From Xenopus tropicalis (Eukaryota > Chordata > Amphibia > Anura > Pipidae): DNA of 64,000 bases. Positions within the stretch are counted from its first letter, which is position 1. Every line of letters starts with the position of its first letter. The position numbers were made by a program, and so were the translations under genes. Of this stretch, positions 6,661 to 55,226 are shown one piece after another. The DNA is taken from contig NC_030678.2 in assembly GCF_000004195.4 (NCBI RefSeq), forward strand, positions 89,316,904 through 89,380,903, in the 5' to 3' direction. Under the pieces are notes generated by a model. That model saw only the letters and a list, made by a program, of their open reading frames with translations. It was not told the DNA's origin and did not search any database.

Positions 6661-6866
6661 TACAGGGTAACCCTTTTGAAATAAAAAATAACAAAAGTGG
6701 TATAAAGGTGATACCTTTATTGGCTAACTAAGATAACCATAGCAAGCTTTCAGAACATTTTAGTTCCTTTTTCAAGCCAAGGAACTAAAATGTTCTGAAA
6801 GCTTGCTATGATTATCTTAGTTAGCCAATAAAGGTATCACCTTTATACCACTTTTGTTACCCTGTA
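6661..6866. mobile_element. Foldback element with 77-bp arms
   Basis: Arms 6691-6767 and 6781-6857 are inverted copies matching at 76 of 77 positions with a 13-nt loop. Outer words TACAGGGTAA and TTACCCTGTA extend the symmetry beyond an interruption on the left. The arm includes GATACCTTTATTGGCTAACT, a sequence I associate with interspersed repeats in frogs and fish. Confidence 0.6.
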
Positions 6867-15400: not shown

Positions 15401-15785
15401 TTTATGTTTCTTCCTTAGGCGCTATGTGAGCGCAGTAACAACTGTTTAGAATGTAACCATAAGATGGAATGTTTATGTATTGTCCAGACCAACACCTAGC
15501 ATTGTGATGCCGACGTATGTAGACATTGACATCACTGATCTCGCAAGATTTCGAATGGTCTGGTATGCAGACTTTGGGTTTTAAATTAAGCTCAGAGTTG
15601 GTGATGGGGAATGCTGCACTGAAAAAGGGGGCGTGAGGTCCCTTAAACATCTGTACCATCCTTGCTAATTGCCCTAATAAACCACAGCAGAGGCAGTTTT
15701 TGCCCCAGCATAAACGGGAATGACATCCATCTGTTTTTGCATTTGATATGTTTCCAAGTTATCAGGAGTGTGCACTCAATGTTAG

Positions 15786-15983
15786 GGTGAAGAAACATGG
15801 AGCTACTTAGTAGCAGCTACTTGTCATGGCTACTAAACCCCAGAAAATCCCCTGCCATAGACAATACTGAGAATTGCCTCTGCCTAAACACACGTAGAGA
15901 CAATTATCAGTAAATGATCAGCATTGTCTATTTTAGTAGCTGTGACAAGTAGCTGCTACTAGTAGCTCCGTGTGTCTTTACAC
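15786..15983. mobile_element. Palindromic MITE with GGAGCTACT arms
   Basis: Left CATGGAGCTACTTAGTAGCA-GCTACTTGTCATGGCTACTA is mirrored on the right by TAGTAGCTGTGACAAGTAGC and TAGTAGCTCCGTG. It abuts the next palindromic MITE without a gap. Confidence 0.6.
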
Positions 15984-16268
15984 TAAGGGCTCTGGCACAC
16001 GGGGAGATTAGTCACCCGCGACAAATCTCCCTTGTCACGGGCAACTAATCTCCCCGAGTTGCCATGACCCGCCATCCCACCGGCGAACATGTAAGTCGCC
16101 GGCGGGATGGCACACGCCAGGAAATCGCGCCGCCTCGTGTGCCATCCCGCCGGCGACTTACATGTTCGCCGGTGGGATGCCGGGTCATGGCAACTCGGGG
16201 AGATTAGTCGCCCGTGAACATGGATTTTTGTCGCGGGCGACTAATTTCCCCGTGTGCCAGAGCCCTTA
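15984..16268. mobile_element. Palindromic MITE, family K, copy 1
   Basis: The ends are TAAGGGCTCTGGCACACGGG and its inverse. Nearly the whole 285 bp folds on itself through GGGGAGATTAGTC, CCGCCGGCGACTTACATG and CACACG blocks around a centre near 16125. It is very CpG-rich against an AT-rich background. Relatives are at 42813-42903, 51770-51969 and 53923-54198. Confidence 0.7.
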
Positions 16269-28097: not shown

Positions 28098-31000
28098 CTG
28101 AATAGGAAAGGAAGGGAGAGGATATTAACACCATATGGTAGGACAAAACTTTATCTTGCTTAAAGGGCCAGTAACACCTGTAAAACACTATGGTCTCATT
28201 TATTATACTTTGAACTAGAGAATCCAGAAAAATTACCTAGCATTTTTTTAAGACATCCTCTGGTGTTTTTAGTCATTAATGTCATTCCCAGCTAGTGTTC
28301 CAGTTCGGTGCCTGGCTTTTACCTGGAAACAAGCTATCTTGGCTATTGGTCTGTTAGGCCATGCACATGTACATGTATTATTAACACATTCCTCTTATTA
28401 GACTTATTAGAATGCATTGAGTTGAGAGCAGCAAGTGAGAAATAAGCCAAAATATGGATGGTGGGTATAAGGATATATGCTGGGCAGAAAATTGATTTTA
28501 TCAAATATGGGCACCAGCTGGAAAAGAAAGGTTAAATGATGCGGTCAGCAATGAGTGCCTTACAAAATATAGCACGCCAAAATTACCTTTCCTTGTTCCT
28601 TTAGTGCTGTACATAGACATTAAAGGTTTTGTGGCTTTCGGAATTATTTTGAAGCTCTGATAAACAGGGCGTTTGGTGGGTTGATCAACTGCCGGGGCCA
28701 TAACCTAAGAAAATTCAAGATGTGCAGGCCCTGTGTATATGGGCACCTAGAAAGACTTCCTGGCTAATAACCTCACACAATTGCTGACCAAAACTCAAAA
28801 AAGTCTCTGATTCTAAATAGATTTTAATCATCTTAAAGAGGACCTGTCACCCACACATAAAAAGCTGTATTTAAAAGGTCCTTTGCAAATTAAACTTAAA
28901 TCCAAATTCTTTTTTTTATTAAAACAATCATACCTTTTACAAAAGGTATTTAAAAATCTGGGCTGTCAATCATACATTGCCTGCTTCAGGCATAGAGGTG
29001 GGGCAGGCAATTTCTTTCACTTTCTATTCAGCACTTCCTAGATTTCATTGCATTTATGTATCCTGTACATGGGCATCAAGTGCCTAATTGTGGAGCATAA
29101 ACAAAATTTTGGTATGATGCACAGCTTGTCTTAATAACTTGCTTGCTGTAATTGTGTACTTGCAAGATTGAGGGTTAAAAAGATTTATAGAATTTATGTA
29201 GTGTAAGTAAAGTTTATTAAATGCTCAACCAACATGATAAAACAGGATTTGGAATGATTTCTTAATGTGACTGTTCCCCTTTTAGCAATAAGCTCAAAGC
29301 CAGAACTAAATCTGGCCAATCTGGTTGAAAAGACTGAAGAGTATAACCAGCCTGTGTGTGGGCAACTTAATGTGGCTCTGTTGGGCTTTAAGCATAATTA
29401 ATTAATTTACAAACCTTGCTACACTTCACATAATAGTCTAAGCTTTTTTTTACCAATTTTTTAAACCCAACTCTCTTCACATCTGCAGTGCTGATTCTAC
29501 TTATCACTTCTCTGATGCACCTACTGATACCTTGCCTTTAGACCTGAGCAAATAAACCCATATTTCTATGTAGGGATGCACCGAATCCAGGATTTGGTTT
29601 GTGATTCAGCCTTTTTCAGCAGGATTTGGATTCAGCTGAATTGACACTCCTTGCAGAACCGAATCTGAATCCTTAAAATCACAAGACTTTTTGTCACAAA
29701 CCTAAAAGTTGAAAAAAAATTTCTGCATGTGCAGCGCATGGTGCTCTATAACCCGTCCATATCCTAATTTACACATGCAAATCAGGGCTCCAAATCTGTA
29801 TTCGCCCAAATCTTTTACAAAGGGTTCGGCTGAATCCGAAAATAGTGGATTTGGGGCATCCTGACTGGTTGCTAAAAGTTACTGCAATAAAAATTATTGT
29901 GGACTCTTTTCCACTACCGATCAGGATTTCAAAAGCTTAAAAATACTTAATATATCAATAACAAAAGTTTATTCCTAAAAGGGACATAATGACTAATCTT
30001 CACGTCAAAAAATGTTGATTTTCTCCAATATATGAATTATTTTGCATGCACTTGTATGTTATTTATTAAAATTATCTGTTTCTGATTAAATGATTATGAC
30101 AAATATATTTTGTTTTAAAACCCTTATTTAAGAACATAATATGCTAAACCAATAAAAGCACTAAACCAACAGAAGCACAAAGAAAATAGCTATGTCATAC
30201 CTCTGTGCTCAGGCGATTCCAGGAATTAAGTCCTGCAGATGAGCTCCTTTTGGAAACCGTTTCATTGACTGTACAACTGTTTTCAAAAGAATTCCTGTTC
30301 CTTGAATACATTTCCCGGGTATGAAGTTTTCCAGGTCTCTCATCCTCGAAAGCAGACCTTCGTCTGTGCTTAGTATCCACTGTCACATCTTTGTGATTAG
30401 ACAAAATATCTAGTTCTTCAGTGGATCCAAACACATTGCGTCCATAAGAACTTCTTACCTTTACACTTTTATTATCCAAATGATTCCCTTCAATTTCATG
30501 ACTTTTCAGCAAAACAGTTTCTAGTCCAACACTATTATTGTTGTTTTTCATTTGTTCTTTGAAATTGCCAGGGTCAAAAGCCTTGCTGTTCTCCTTATGA
30601 TCCAAGTTATCTTTTGTATCCACCAATTTTAACATATCTTGTTTATTGATTGATATTTCAAATGGGATACTTATGTTATTTAACAAAGGTTGGTCATTGG
30701 CAGATAGCCGAATATTACTGGTAGAAGTATGCCTTTGTTTTATGATTTCATCTGTGTTAGATCGAGATGAAGGTGATTCGGCTGGAAAAAATGTTATGCT
30801 ACTTGTCACTTTATTTGTTGTTGTGTTAATTTGTGATCTACTCTGTTCTGCACTGGATCTTGCTCTGTATTCGCCCATACTTTCTTTTGTGTCTTTTTCA
30901 ACAATAACTGGCTTAATGATCACTGTGGATTGCAAAGCTTCTCTTGGGCTATATGATCTTGCCCTTATTTCTATGCGGGAAGGTTTTTCCATGCTTTCTG

Positions 31001-33164
31001 AATTATCAGAAGATGTTCTTCTGGATATGTCAGATAATGAATCTCTTTGTTGTTGCTGACTGTCCATATCAAACTGGGAAATCCTCTGCTCCAGTACGTG
31101 TGTCTTTTCTTTAGGATTTGACTGTCTTCTGTTCTGAATTCTTAAAGTTACATTTCTTTTGTCCCATTCTTTATTTTCAGTAGATTCTGAAATATGAGGT
31201 TTTTCAGGAATTTGTGGCTTTAAAGATGATAATGGTCTTTGTCTTTCTCTGTTATATGACACTCTATTTGAATTTAAGTTTTGATTTCCACTATCTTTAC
31301 TTGATAGTGGCTTGGTGGATTGGGCAGTGTCAGAAGAGTTTGTGATGCTATCCATTCTTGATTTAAGACGCGAGTATCTGGAAGGTCTATCCCGAGATAT
31401 GTCCTTTACTTCACTACTGTCTGAATTAGGAGCAGTCTTAGTTTGTACTTCCACCATTTTTGCCGTATATTTATCTGGAGAGGTCCCCTCTAACCCAGAA
31501 GTGACTGGTTCTGAATGCAATGCAGATGAAGAGTTATCATCCAACTGCACTTCATGAAAATTTGAATTGACTTTGTCTGATTTGGCACCAGGAGTCTCAT
31601 TTAAATCTTCATCTTCTTCAGATGTGCTCTCTTTTCTTGAGTCAACAATCTGAGTAACTTTAATAGAATAGTCTTCTCCAAATTGTTTTGCGGATACATC
31701 TTTATTTCCTGTTGATGCTTTCCATGTTTTTTGGGTGTTGTGTTCTTGGGCAGCTGGTGGATATCGACTTAATACAGATGGCTGATCTTTAGCCTTTTTT
31801 ATTTCATGTAGAGCTCCAAACTCTTTAGCAGCAGATACATTGGAAGTTAGTCTATCTTCAGATTTCCTTGAATGGCTTAAAGTCATGTCAGATAAAGTAG
31901 GTTTTAAGGGTCTCTTGCTATTTGTACTTGTGCTTGATAAATGTCTCTTAGAGGAAATATCCACATCTATGTCACGGTGTCTCTCTTTTCTCAGTTGTTT
32001 TGGAGACAAATCTCTCTGAGTATATTTTGATGCAGGAGGTTCAGGTATTACTCCTTTAGACTTATTAGCTCTTTCATTTTTCGATTTATTGTGTAAACTT
32101 AATTCATCGCTACCAATAACTCCATTTTCTACTTCATTCTGCTGACTAACTTGTCTTTTTAGTTCCTTAAGTTCACCATCCAAATGTCTGGCTTTATTCT
32201 GTTCACCAAGGAAGATTTCTTGCAATTTTCTATTTTTCTCTCTAAACTGTTTGAGCTCTTCGTCAATTCCCTCAAATCGTTTTATCTGACTTTTAAGATT
32301 CTCAATTTCTTGACACAAATCATGTATTTTATTGTCTTCTTGTTGTTTATTCCTCTCGTTTTCGCTAGTTGTTTGATTCTCTGATTTAATGTAGTCAAAA
32401 CCAACTCCTTGAGACAATTTAGATATCACATTGTCTTCAATCCGTATTTTATTGTGTTCCAGTAACTGATCAGATGACCGCTGCAAAACATTTGATTCGT
32501 TTTGGGTCTGGTCTCCAATGTTTTTTTTACCTTTTAACTGCTGTTTAAGTTCCTGAATTATTTTTTCATTCTGCTTTTCCTTCTCCAGAAAATATTTTCT
32601 TTCATTAGCAAAACCAACAGCCAAAGACCTAATCTTTTCAAGTTCACTAGTCAAAAACTCTTCAGCTTTATCCAGTTTGCTTTCAGAAGATTCCAGTTCT
32701 CTAATTCTGGCCCTAAGTGTTTCAAGTTCAGAAGTCAATTTCCTAGACATATTTTTTTCTTCATTCAAGCTAAGACACAGTTGGGTGCAGTCATTTTTGC
32801 TCTTGCTAAAAGCTTCTTCCAGCTTCTCCAGTTCTGTCATCTTTTTTTGGAGAATTTCAATTTCTGACCTAAGTTCTCGAGTAACATTTTCTTCATTTTC
32901 TAGTTTTTCCCTAACAATTCTGCACAAATCCTCCGCTTTTTTAACCTCTTCGTCTTTACCTTCAATTTTTACAACCCTCTTTCTCAAAGCGTCAATATCT
33001 GCCAACATGCTAGAGTTGTTCCCTTCTACTTGGACAATTTTTTCCTGAAGTTCCAAAACTTCATCTTCTGCTTTCTGAAGATTTCTTGTAGCTTCTTCCA
33101 GATCATCCAGGCGACGATTTAGACTTTGTAACTTAAAGCGAAGATGTCTGCTTGTGTGTTCCAT
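27963..33164 (-). CDS. luzp1: Leucine zipper protein 1 (LUZP1), two coding exons
   Basis: The CDS joins 33164-30201 to 28097-27963 and encodes about 1032 residues (human about 1076). The N-terminus carries the family block SRHLRFKLQSLNRRLDDLEE (residues 5-24). Strong heptad coiled coil covers about residues 10-215 and 272-345. The rest is Ser-rich, basic and probably disordered, with conserved islands: SVLSRYPPAAQEH (463-475), YSPREAL (738-744), VIIKPVIVEKD (748-758), KVTSSITFFP (785-794), RHTSTSNIRL (811-820). The start has a strong context (GCAGCCATGG). The donor GAG|GTATGA and acceptor CTATTCAG|AGTGAG are phase 0. In mammals LUZP1 binds actin and microtubules, sits at centrosomes and cell junctions, and restrains cilium formation; mouse loss gives neural tube closure defects. 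That role is inferred here by orthology. No frame breaks are seen. Confidence 0.95.
28833..29284 (+). mobile_element. Family B MITE, copy 3, in a LUZP1 intron
   Basis: TTAAAGAGGACCTGTCACCC at the left and a decayed GTGACTGTTCCCCTTTT at the right. The internal GCATAGAGGTGGGGCAGGCA and TAGTGTAAGTAAAGTTTATT match copy 1. It lies antisense to the gene, between the two coding exons. Confidence 0.65.
29571..29864. mobile_element. hAT-like MITE with TAGGGATGCACCGAATCC end
   Basis: The left end is TAGGGATGCACCGAATCCAG. The right end GTGGATTTGGGGCATCCTGA is a decayed inverse, and ATTCGGTTCAGC-like words are mirrored inside. The flanking duplication is no longer clear. A similar start (AAGGATGCACCAGAT) is seen at 54596. 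Confidence 0.55.
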
Positions 33165-42812: not shown

Positions 42813-42903
42813 CTAAGGGCTGTGACAGACGGGGAGATTATTCGCCGCGTGACAAATCTCCCTTGTTGCAGCGACTTATCTCCCCGTCTGTCACAGCCCT
42901 AAG
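42813..42903. mobile_element. Minimal family K MITE, copy 2
   Basis: CTAAGGGCTGTGACAGACGG-GGAGATTA faces its inverse TATCTCCCCGTCTGTCACAG-CCCTAAG. With only about 91 bp in total, it is little more than two ends. Confidence 0.7.
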
Positions 42904-48700: not shown

Positions 48701-49010
48701 TTCAGGTATGGGATTTGTTATCCAGAAACCCTTTATCCATAAAGTTCTTAATTAAGGGAAGGCCATCTCCACAGAATCCATTACAAGCAATTAATTCCAG
48801 TTTTAAACATCATTTCCTTTTTATTGGTAAAAATTAAACAGTACCTAGTACTTAATCCCAACTAAAATATAATGAATCCTTATTGTGTTTATTTAATGTT
48901 AACATGATTTTTTAGCAGATTTAAGGTATGGAGATCGAAATTACAGAAAGACCCCTTATCCAAAAAACTCCAGGCCCCAAGTATTCTAGATAACAGGTCC
49001 CATACCTGTA
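48701..49010. mobile_element. TACAGGTATGGGA-ended MITE, family N, copy 1
   Basis: TTCAGGTATGGGATTTGTTA and the inverse GGTCCCATACCTGTA. The interior has TTATCCAGAAACCC and TTAAGGTATGGAGAT words typical of a very abundant Xenopus element. Confidence 0.7.
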
Positions 49011-51773: not shown

Positions 51774-51969
51774 GGGCCATAGCTAACGCACAGGCAACTA
51801 ATCTCACAGAAATGTCTTCCCACCACCAATAAAGTGAATAGCAGGTGGGATGTGTATGCCTTCCCACCAGCTATTCACTTTATGGCCGATGGGAAGGCAT
51901 TTTGGGGAGATTAGTTGCCTGTGGTAGCAGAGATTTAACTGCGAGCAACTAATCTTTCCATGGCCCTAA
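51770..51969. mobile_element. Family K-like palindromic MITE, third of three abutting
   Basis: TTAAGGGCCATAGCTAACGC on the left and CTTTCCATGGCCCTAAA on the right. The inner arms (GGCAACTAATCTC, CTTCCCACC-ATAAAGTGAATAG) are mirrored, giving a long hairpin. Confidence 0.65.
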
Positions 51970-53311: not shown

Positions 53312-53488
53312 TACAGGTATGGGAGCTGTTGTCCAGAATACCCGTGACCTGGAGTTTTCTGGATAAGGTGTCTTCCATTATTTGGATCTCCACACCTTAA
53401 GTCTACAAAAAAATAAATTTAAACATTAAATAAACCCAATAGGATTGATAATAAACAGGTTTCCTGGATAACAGATCCCCTACCTGTA
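53312..53488. mobile_element. Family N MITE, copy 2 (internally deleted)
   Basis: TACAGGTATGGGAGCTGTTG on the left and GATCCCCTACCTGTA on the right. It carries CACCTTAAGTCTAC and AATAAACCCAATAGG. At 177 bp it is much shorter than copy 1. Confidence 0.7.
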
Positions 53489-53700
53489 CTTGTTTTCAAG
53501 CAACCAGGTAATTTACTCTCTTTATATCATTACTGGAAAGACGGAGATCATCCCCTTATGTAACAATAGTAAAAAATAGTGCCACAGTCTGTACTGAATT
53601 CTTAAGGTGGTTTAAACAGCCACTGCAACCTTTTAATAAGTTGTAAAAGACGAATACAAAACAGAGACTGCCCAAATTGTCTGCAGCGCAAAATATTTAA

Positions 53701-54420
53701 CAGATTTTTCATGCAAATCTCCCTTATCAGCCCTGGAATGGTATAGCTTGGCAAGGAACAGAGTAGAGGCAAGCACACTGACATTTCAATGGGGAATTAC
53801 ATCACCTCTATTAAAATATTTTATTACAAATTACACTGTTCAAATTGTGTGGATTGCACAACATTTTGGGGGGCTCCTGCCTCTTCTTCTCAGGTGAAGA
53901 AGTGAATTGGGCTGGGAGAGGATTAAGGGCTGTGGCACACGGGGAGATTAATCGCCCGCGACAAGGGAGACTAATCTCCCCGATATGCCAGCCCACCAGC
54001 GAGAATGTAAATCACCGGTGGGATGTATACGCGGCGCCGCGATCGCCGAAGTTGCCTTCAGAGGAAACTTCGGCAATTTCGGTGCCGCGTTTTGCGACCC
54101 CACCAGCGATTTACAGTCTCACCGGTGGGATGGCATATCGGGGAGATTAGTCTCCCTTGTCGCGGGCGATTAATCTCCCCGTGTGCCACAGCCCTTAATC
54201 CTCTCCCAGCCCAATTCACTTCTTCACCTGAGAAGAAGAGGCAGGAGCCCCCCAAAATGTTGAGCAATCCACACAATTTGAACAGTGCAATTTATAATAA
54301 AATATTTTAATAGAGGTGATGTAATTCCCCATTGAAATGTCAGTGTGCTTGCCTCTACTCTGTTCCTTGCCAAGCTATACCATTCCAGGGCTGATAAGGG
54401 AGATTTGCATGAAAAATCTG
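53701..54420. repeat. 720-bp near-perfect palindrome around a family K MITE
   Basis: Arms 53701-53990 and 54131-54420 are inverted copies matching at 287 of 290 positions; the mismatches fall in 53821-53880. The centre (about 53923-54198) is a family K MITE (TTAAGGGCTGTGGCACACGG ends), whose own core (53991-54130) is a poorer foldback. The outer about 222 bp of each arm is not MITE sequence and resembles ordinary flank copied in inverse. Confidence 0.9.
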
Positions 54421-54490
54421 AAAGATTAGTCGCCCGCAACAAGGGAGATTTCTCACGGCCGACTAAACTCCCAGTCTGTCGCGGCCCTAA
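54421..54490. mobile_element. Half of another family K MITE, adjoining the palindrome
   Basis: AGATTAGTCGCCCGCAACAAGG, then ACTCCCAGTCTGTCGCGGCCCTAA, is a right half of a family K type element. It starts exactly where the palindrome stops. Confidence 0.5.
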
Positions 54491-54817: not shown

Positions 54818-55226
54818 TTAAAGGAACAGTAACACCAAAAAATGAAAGTGTATAAAAGTAATGTGCTGCTGCCCTGCACTGGTAAAAGTTGTGTGTTTAC
54901 TTCAGAAAGTCTACTATAATTTATATAAATAAGCTGCTATGTAGCCATGGAGGCAGCCATTCAAAGGAGAAAATGCACAGGCACATAGCAGATAACAGAT
55001 AAAACACTATTGTATTCTATAGAACTTATCTGTTATCTGTAACCTGTGCCTTTTCTCCTTTTTTCCAGCTTGAATGGCTGCCCCCGTGGCTACACAGCAG
55101 CTTATTATATAAATTATAGTAGTGTTACTGTAGCAGACACACCAGTTTTACCAGTGCAGGGCAACAGTGCATTATATTTTTATTACTTTAAAGCTCTTTC
55201 ATTTTTTAGTGTTACTGTTCCTTTAA
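54818..55226. mobile_element. T2 MITE, intact ends
   Basis: TTAAAGGAACAGTAACACCA on the left and GTGTTACTGTTCCTTTAA on the right, with TTAA at both borders. The two halves mirror each other through CCCTGCACTGGTAAAA, ATAAGCTGCT and AGATAACAGATAA words. It is a textbook member of the family. Confidence 0.8.

Follow-up and report, generated by a model that had tools for sequence, protein, structure and literature searches.

A 720-bp palindrome centred on a MITE in Xenopus tropicalis, probably formed by fold-back copying of the flank of the element

Introduction

Fold-back inversions have been described, in the papers cited here, in patients, cancers and yeast. In human inverted duplications the spacer is not duplicated and is bordered by inverted homology; at three of the 21 sequenced human junctions there are pairs of Alu or LINE elements with 82-95% identity across about 300 bp (PMC3907307). 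Yeast requires polymerase delta for foldback priming at inverted repeats, and the route consists of foldback annealing, trimming of the flap, synthesis by polymerase delta and the formation of hairpin-capped ends (PMC10622511). At an 11-bp imperfect priming repeat both mismatches had been corrected in every sae2 clone, apart from two of genotype sae2 pol3-01, which also lack the proofreading of polymerase delta (PMC10622511). Hairpins with long stems can be used near to the break or far from it, and where Mre11 and Sae2 are intact, foldbacks arise mainly from hairpins with large loops (PMC7467729). Short inverted copies are also covered by the four-point template-switch model, for which the gold-standard events in great apes do not exceed 128 bp (PMC7954356). 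The literature matches listed, as far as their excerpts extend, hold no description of an inverted duplication that is centred on a MITE and consists of the flank of that same element.

Here the analysis of such a locus is presented. It lies in a stretch of 64,000 nucleotides of the X. tropicalis genome, referred to below as the window. A sequence-only reading of the window had interpreted positions 53701-54420 as an inverted duplication centred on a hairpin-forming MITE. This is still the best reading of the locus, with new support from a step in arm identity inside the MITE, and taken as a whole it is partly supported. The parts of the palindrome and its right-hand neighbour are as follows.

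53701..53922, + strand: left outer arm, 222 bp lying outside the MITE, with 98.6% identity to 54420-54199 in inverted orientation
53923..54198, no strand: MITE K1 with TTAA on each side, 276 bp; element proper 53927-54194; TIR GGGCTGTGGCACACGGGG
53927..53990, + strand: outer 64 bp of the left TIR of K1, with no differences from 54131-54194 inverted
53991..54130, no strand: inner part of K1, an unduplicated spacer with the presumed fold-back stem and loop; the change point in arm identity falls after 53990
54131..54194, - strand: outer 64 bp of the right TIR of K1, with the identity step and the clean terminal run; probably part of the copied tract
54199..54420, - strand: right outer arm, 222 bp, its outer end adjoining truncated K2
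54421..54487, no strand: MITE K2, a short family-K element; 54423-54488 match 42881-42816, and the intact end GGCCC-TAA is at 54487

Features of the window

The window contains a frame of 989 amino acids on the minus strand (30195-33164), which is 100% identical over its full length to leucine zipper protein 1 (LUZP1) of Xenopus tropicalis, while its identity to each of two X. laevis versions is 84%; in this protein search the 7987 candidates sharing most words were scored and the best 120 of 914 were listed. No Pfam family was found in the LUZP1 frame, and of 22 stretches in viral contigs that a pattern search with this frame picked out, none was confirmed. A search of the whole window against Rfam at gathering thresholds gave no matches, and the MITE terminus pattern had none in viral contigs.

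Inverted repeats with alignments of at least 35 bp fill 37 rows for the window, and the ends of 18 of them, K1 included, were inspected. In the few palindromes with a recognisable terminus, namely family-K copies 1 and 2 (see below) and a T2-like element, inverted identity beyond the terminus was absent. The T2-like element lies downstream of the palindrome (54818-55226), is a 409-bp inverted-repeat element with ends TTAAAGGAACAGTAACAC, and resembles a T2-MITE of Kolobok type. To the left of the palindrome, 53312-53488 is a repeat with an internal inverted partner and has matches at 48703-49010. A further palindrome, of 171 bp and 94.8% self-complementary, occupies 6689-6859 and has the ends TAACAAAAGTGG.

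Extent of the palindrome

Comparison of 53701-53990 with 54131-54420 in inverted orientation gave identity at 287 of 290 positions, the same count as claimed from the letters alone. A separate repeat search agreed with it, returning arms of 322 nt (53701-54022 and 54099-54420) that are 97% complementary. The bounds proposed earlier for the 276-bp MITE centre, which include TTAA on each side, and for the 222-bp outer arms also proved correct. Immediately outward of the palindrome the identity drops sharply, to eight matches in the first 20 bp and one in the second 20 bp.

The predicted single-strand fold of the palindrome has an energy of -425.3 kcal/mol; 20 shuffled sequences average -92.0 (sd 6.1), which places the real value 54 standard deviations lower. 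Inverted words of at least 20 bp occurred in none of 500 two-base-block shuffles of the surrounding 1320-bp region, in which the longest was 18 bp; the real region has one of 30 bp, the maximum length tested.

The three mismatches between the arms, at 53827, 53833 and 53858, all fall inside 32 bp. This cluster could be a conversion patch or could be due to chance, and with a chance probability of about 0.03 it is too weak to be used as evidence.

The outer 222-bp arm has no third copy in the 64-kb window, where its other matches do not exceed 20 bp, and it has stop codons in all six reading frames. Its GC content is 0.42 with a CpG observed/expected ratio of 0.0; the corresponding values for the MITE are 0.57 and 1.15.

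K1, K2 and their relatives

The TIR GGGCTGTGGCACACGGGG of K1 is found at 53927-53944 and inverted at 54177-54194, without mismatches at either end and with TTAA outside each, and the same TIR occurs in copies 1 and 2 with one and two mismatches, respectively. The relatives of K1 identified by BLAST in the window are these.

15987-16265: family-K copy 1
42817-42899: family-K copy 2, short (83 bp)
51774-51966: family-K copy 3, diverged

Copies 2 and 3 are flanked by TAA/TAA, a direct 3-bp duplication. The flanks of K1 are TAA/TTA, as though the right one were the reverse complement of the left, a state that fits fold-back or strand-switch copying; because copy 1 has the same TAA/TTA flanks, this argument draws on only two of the three comparators. 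Copy 1 directly abuts another palindromic element (15782-15986, ends TTAGGGTGAAGA / TACACTAA), and the junction bases are common to both.

Family K is provisionally assigned to PIF/Harbinger, elements which have a 3-bp TSD (PMC2213677). The TAA/TAA flanks of copies 2 and 3 and a TIR starting with GGGC are features shared with MITEs of this type, whereas K1 itself has no direct 3-bp TSD, and the superfamily of a MITE is unprovable without a transposase. The Kolobok T2-MITEs of Xenopus, defined by a TTAA target site and terminal AGGRR (PMC6004289), were considered as another placement and rejected, as family K ends in GGGC (AGGGC if one A is counted) and TTAA is present on both sides in K1 but in none of the three comparators.

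The second MITE, K2, is 83.6% identical over 67 columns to copy 2 (54423-54488 against 42881-42816). It had been described as half of another MITE meeting the right edge of the palindrome, which is incorrect: K2 keeps about 65 bp and, relative to copy 2, is short of about 18 bp at the end that meets the junction.

An identity step inside the MITE

If K1 had been inserted into an older palindrome, the differences between its arms would be expected to be spread along the TIR or to follow the family pattern. Instead, the best change point of arm identity falls after 53990, with three differences in 290 positions outside it and 15 in 62 inside, a step matched in none of 2000 permutations, each of which was free to pick its own change point. 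Counted from the terminus, the arms of K1 run for 64 bp with no difference, and the following 64 aligned columns contain 15 (the denominators 62 and 64 reflect different trimming of the loop tip in the two counts; the untrimmed alignment of the inner part has 14 mismatches and 4 gaps in 72 columns). In the part of the arms that belongs to the MITE, 68 positions pass before the first difference, a run reached in none of 20000 shuffles.

The clean terminal runs of copies 1, 2 and 3 are 19, 22 and 7 bp, compared with 64 bp in K1. In copy 1 the gradient is opposite to that of K1, with differences at eight of 64 outer and three of 69 inner positions. These three are the comparators that the window offers; the length of copy 2 does not allow a comparison of the inner part, and copy 3 is heavily diverged, with differences in 57 of 116 columns. 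The motif TTAATCG, which both arms of K1 have and all four arms of copies 1 and 2 lack, is a weak sign in addition.

With its perfect outer 64 bp and its divergent inner part, K1 looks as if the recently copied tract included the outer MITE and started in the inner stem, so that the outer 64 bp of the left TIR seem to have been homogenised along with the flank. An identity step within K1 is expected of fold-back priming, or of a strand switch, at the MITE hairpin, and the step, together with comparators lacking such clean ends, favours an event of this kind begun in the MITE over insertion of the MITE into an existing palindrome. Alternatively, the step may come from a K1 subfamily whose TIRs are by nature identical in their outer part and divergent in their inner part.

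The unduplicated spacer is bounded by imperfect inverted homology, as in fold-back inverted duplications: inward of the step at 53990/53991, the segments 53991-54022 and 54099-54130 can form a possible priming stem with 26 of 32 positions paired, which starts where the copied tract starts.

Proposed origin of the palindrome

The arms, the identity step in the MITE, the states of the flanks and the truncation of K2 are observed, and their probable source is a single inverted duplication primed by K1. In such an event, while a break or stall on the right-hand side of K1, perhaps within K2, was being repaired, the strand bearing K1 would have become single-stranded. The imperfect inner stem of K1 would then have annealed to itself and the unpaired 3' end would have been trimmed back to the stem. 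Synthesis would have proceeded outward, through the outer 68 bp of the MITE including TTAA and then through 222 bp of the left flank, ending at the present position 53701, and the copied end would have been joined to what remained of K2. The expected product has near-perfect 290-bp arms around an unduplicated and more divergent MITE core of 140 bp. In this scheme we infer the initiating break, the direction of copying, the joining and the choice of fold-back priming over an inter-strand template switch at a fork, which gives an identical product.

The direction of copying is suggested by the two edges. The outer end of the right arm adjoins truncated K2, which makes the right edge the likelier novel junction; there the junction cuts into K2, and the end of that element is absent. 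The left arm leads into about 210 bp (53489-53700) with no family-K match. The left arm is therefore probably the original copy, and the right arm probably the inverted copy that was joined to the broken K2. The first two bases at the K2 junction (AA, 54421-54422) may be filler. As to the joining, a CTG microhomology of the arm end with a mirrored K2 end is a weak hint, the lost K2 end itself not being seen.

The presumed stem keeps six mismatches in 32 positions, which stands against simple foldback, since those of the yeast priming repeat were mostly corrected. Failed correction, priming from the outermost few bases, mutation of the CpG-rich stem after the event, or a switch between strands could each account for this. 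The mismatch at 53991 would also be an unpaired base at the end of the primer, unless the start of priming lay a few bases inward and the change at 53991 came afterwards.

Alternative explanations

The order of events could be the reverse, a palindrome with 222-bp arms and a central TTAA having come first and K1 having entered at precisely that site, perhaps through a preference for extruded cruciforms. TTAA is itself palindromic and a 4-bp duplication of it yields exactly the observed flanks GGATTAA...TTAATCC, and the TAA/TTA flanks of copy 1 are not in conflict with a TTAA preference plus one change. The 3-bp TAA duplication seen in copies 2 and 3, however, would give GCCC-TAATCC and not the observed GCCC-TTAATCC. 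Such an insertion would also leave the perfect outer 64 bp and the imperfect inner TIR unexplained and would require a separate origin for the palindrome, so that this order of events is considered improbable. A transposon with long TIRs, similar to Foldback elements, would have the overall shape and the 290-bp arms of the 720-bp structure, but its flanks should then carry a TSD: the sequences at 53700 and 54421 are TTTAA and AAAGA, with a longest direct repeat of 2 bp (AA/AA) and hence no TSD of at least 3 bp. That the outer arm lacks a third copy in 64 kb and that a complete family-K MITE with termini of its own is contained inside are further points against a transposon, and this explanation is given little credence.

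Long palindromes are difficult to sequence and to assemble, and fold-back priming occurs in vitro as well as in cells, which leaves a chimeric or self-primed molecule of the library or the assembly as a third candidate. A copy made in vitro should be identical to its template save for errors, yet the arms differ at three internal positions, and the right edge runs on into distinct sequence, that of K2 and beyond. An artefact is accordingly unlikely, and a fold-back or strand-switch event primed by K1 is the preferred reading.

Age of the duplication

The palindrome had also been judged to be either young or an artefact. Its three arm differences lean to the former, an event about 1-2 My old, although with a wide interval. 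Divergence between the arms is 3/290 (95% interval 0.2-3.0%). With a rate r of 3.1e-9 per year, taken from Session et al. 2016 as quoted in PMC9210276, T = K/2r suggests about 1.7 My (range about 0.3-4.8 My), on the assumption of no later conversion between the arms.

Implications

It is conceivable, if rather doubtful, that in the frog germ line the priming of fold-back copying by hairpin-forming MITEs, with their own flanks as the template, is a recurrent process. If this were true, a MITE-rich genome would hold a datable series of MITE-centred palindromes, with the identity step marking the start of synthesis in each, and there would be a route to new long-arm elements and to hairpin-RNA loci. 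The position of the identity step provides a simple test that could be applied to all MITEs genome-wide. As a small interstitial case from a frog that retains its presumed priming hairpin, the palindrome would allow the process to be studied as ordinary germ-line evolution.

Comparison with known rearrangements

The fold-back inverted duplications known from human and yeast (PMC3907307, PMC10622511, PMC7467729) resemble the frog locus in the inverted copy, in a spacer that is left unduplicated and has inverted homology at its edge and, probably, in a novel far junction. They differ from it in scale and setting, since the frog palindrome has arms of only 290 bp and is interstitial, with neither a dicentric chromosome nor a terminal deletion seen. 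The primer in the frog would be the arms of one MITE and not two separate repeats, and the presumed stem kept its mismatches, unlike most clones of the yeast study.

In terms of short-range template switching as outlined in PMC7954356, the locus likewise presents a local reverse-complement tract, with points 1 and 2 at about 54130 and 53990, point 3 at 53701 and point 4 at 54421, but the copied tract of 290 bp exceeds the maximum of the events given there. The K1 palindrome is probably a naturally occurring case of a known type of DNA rearrangement.
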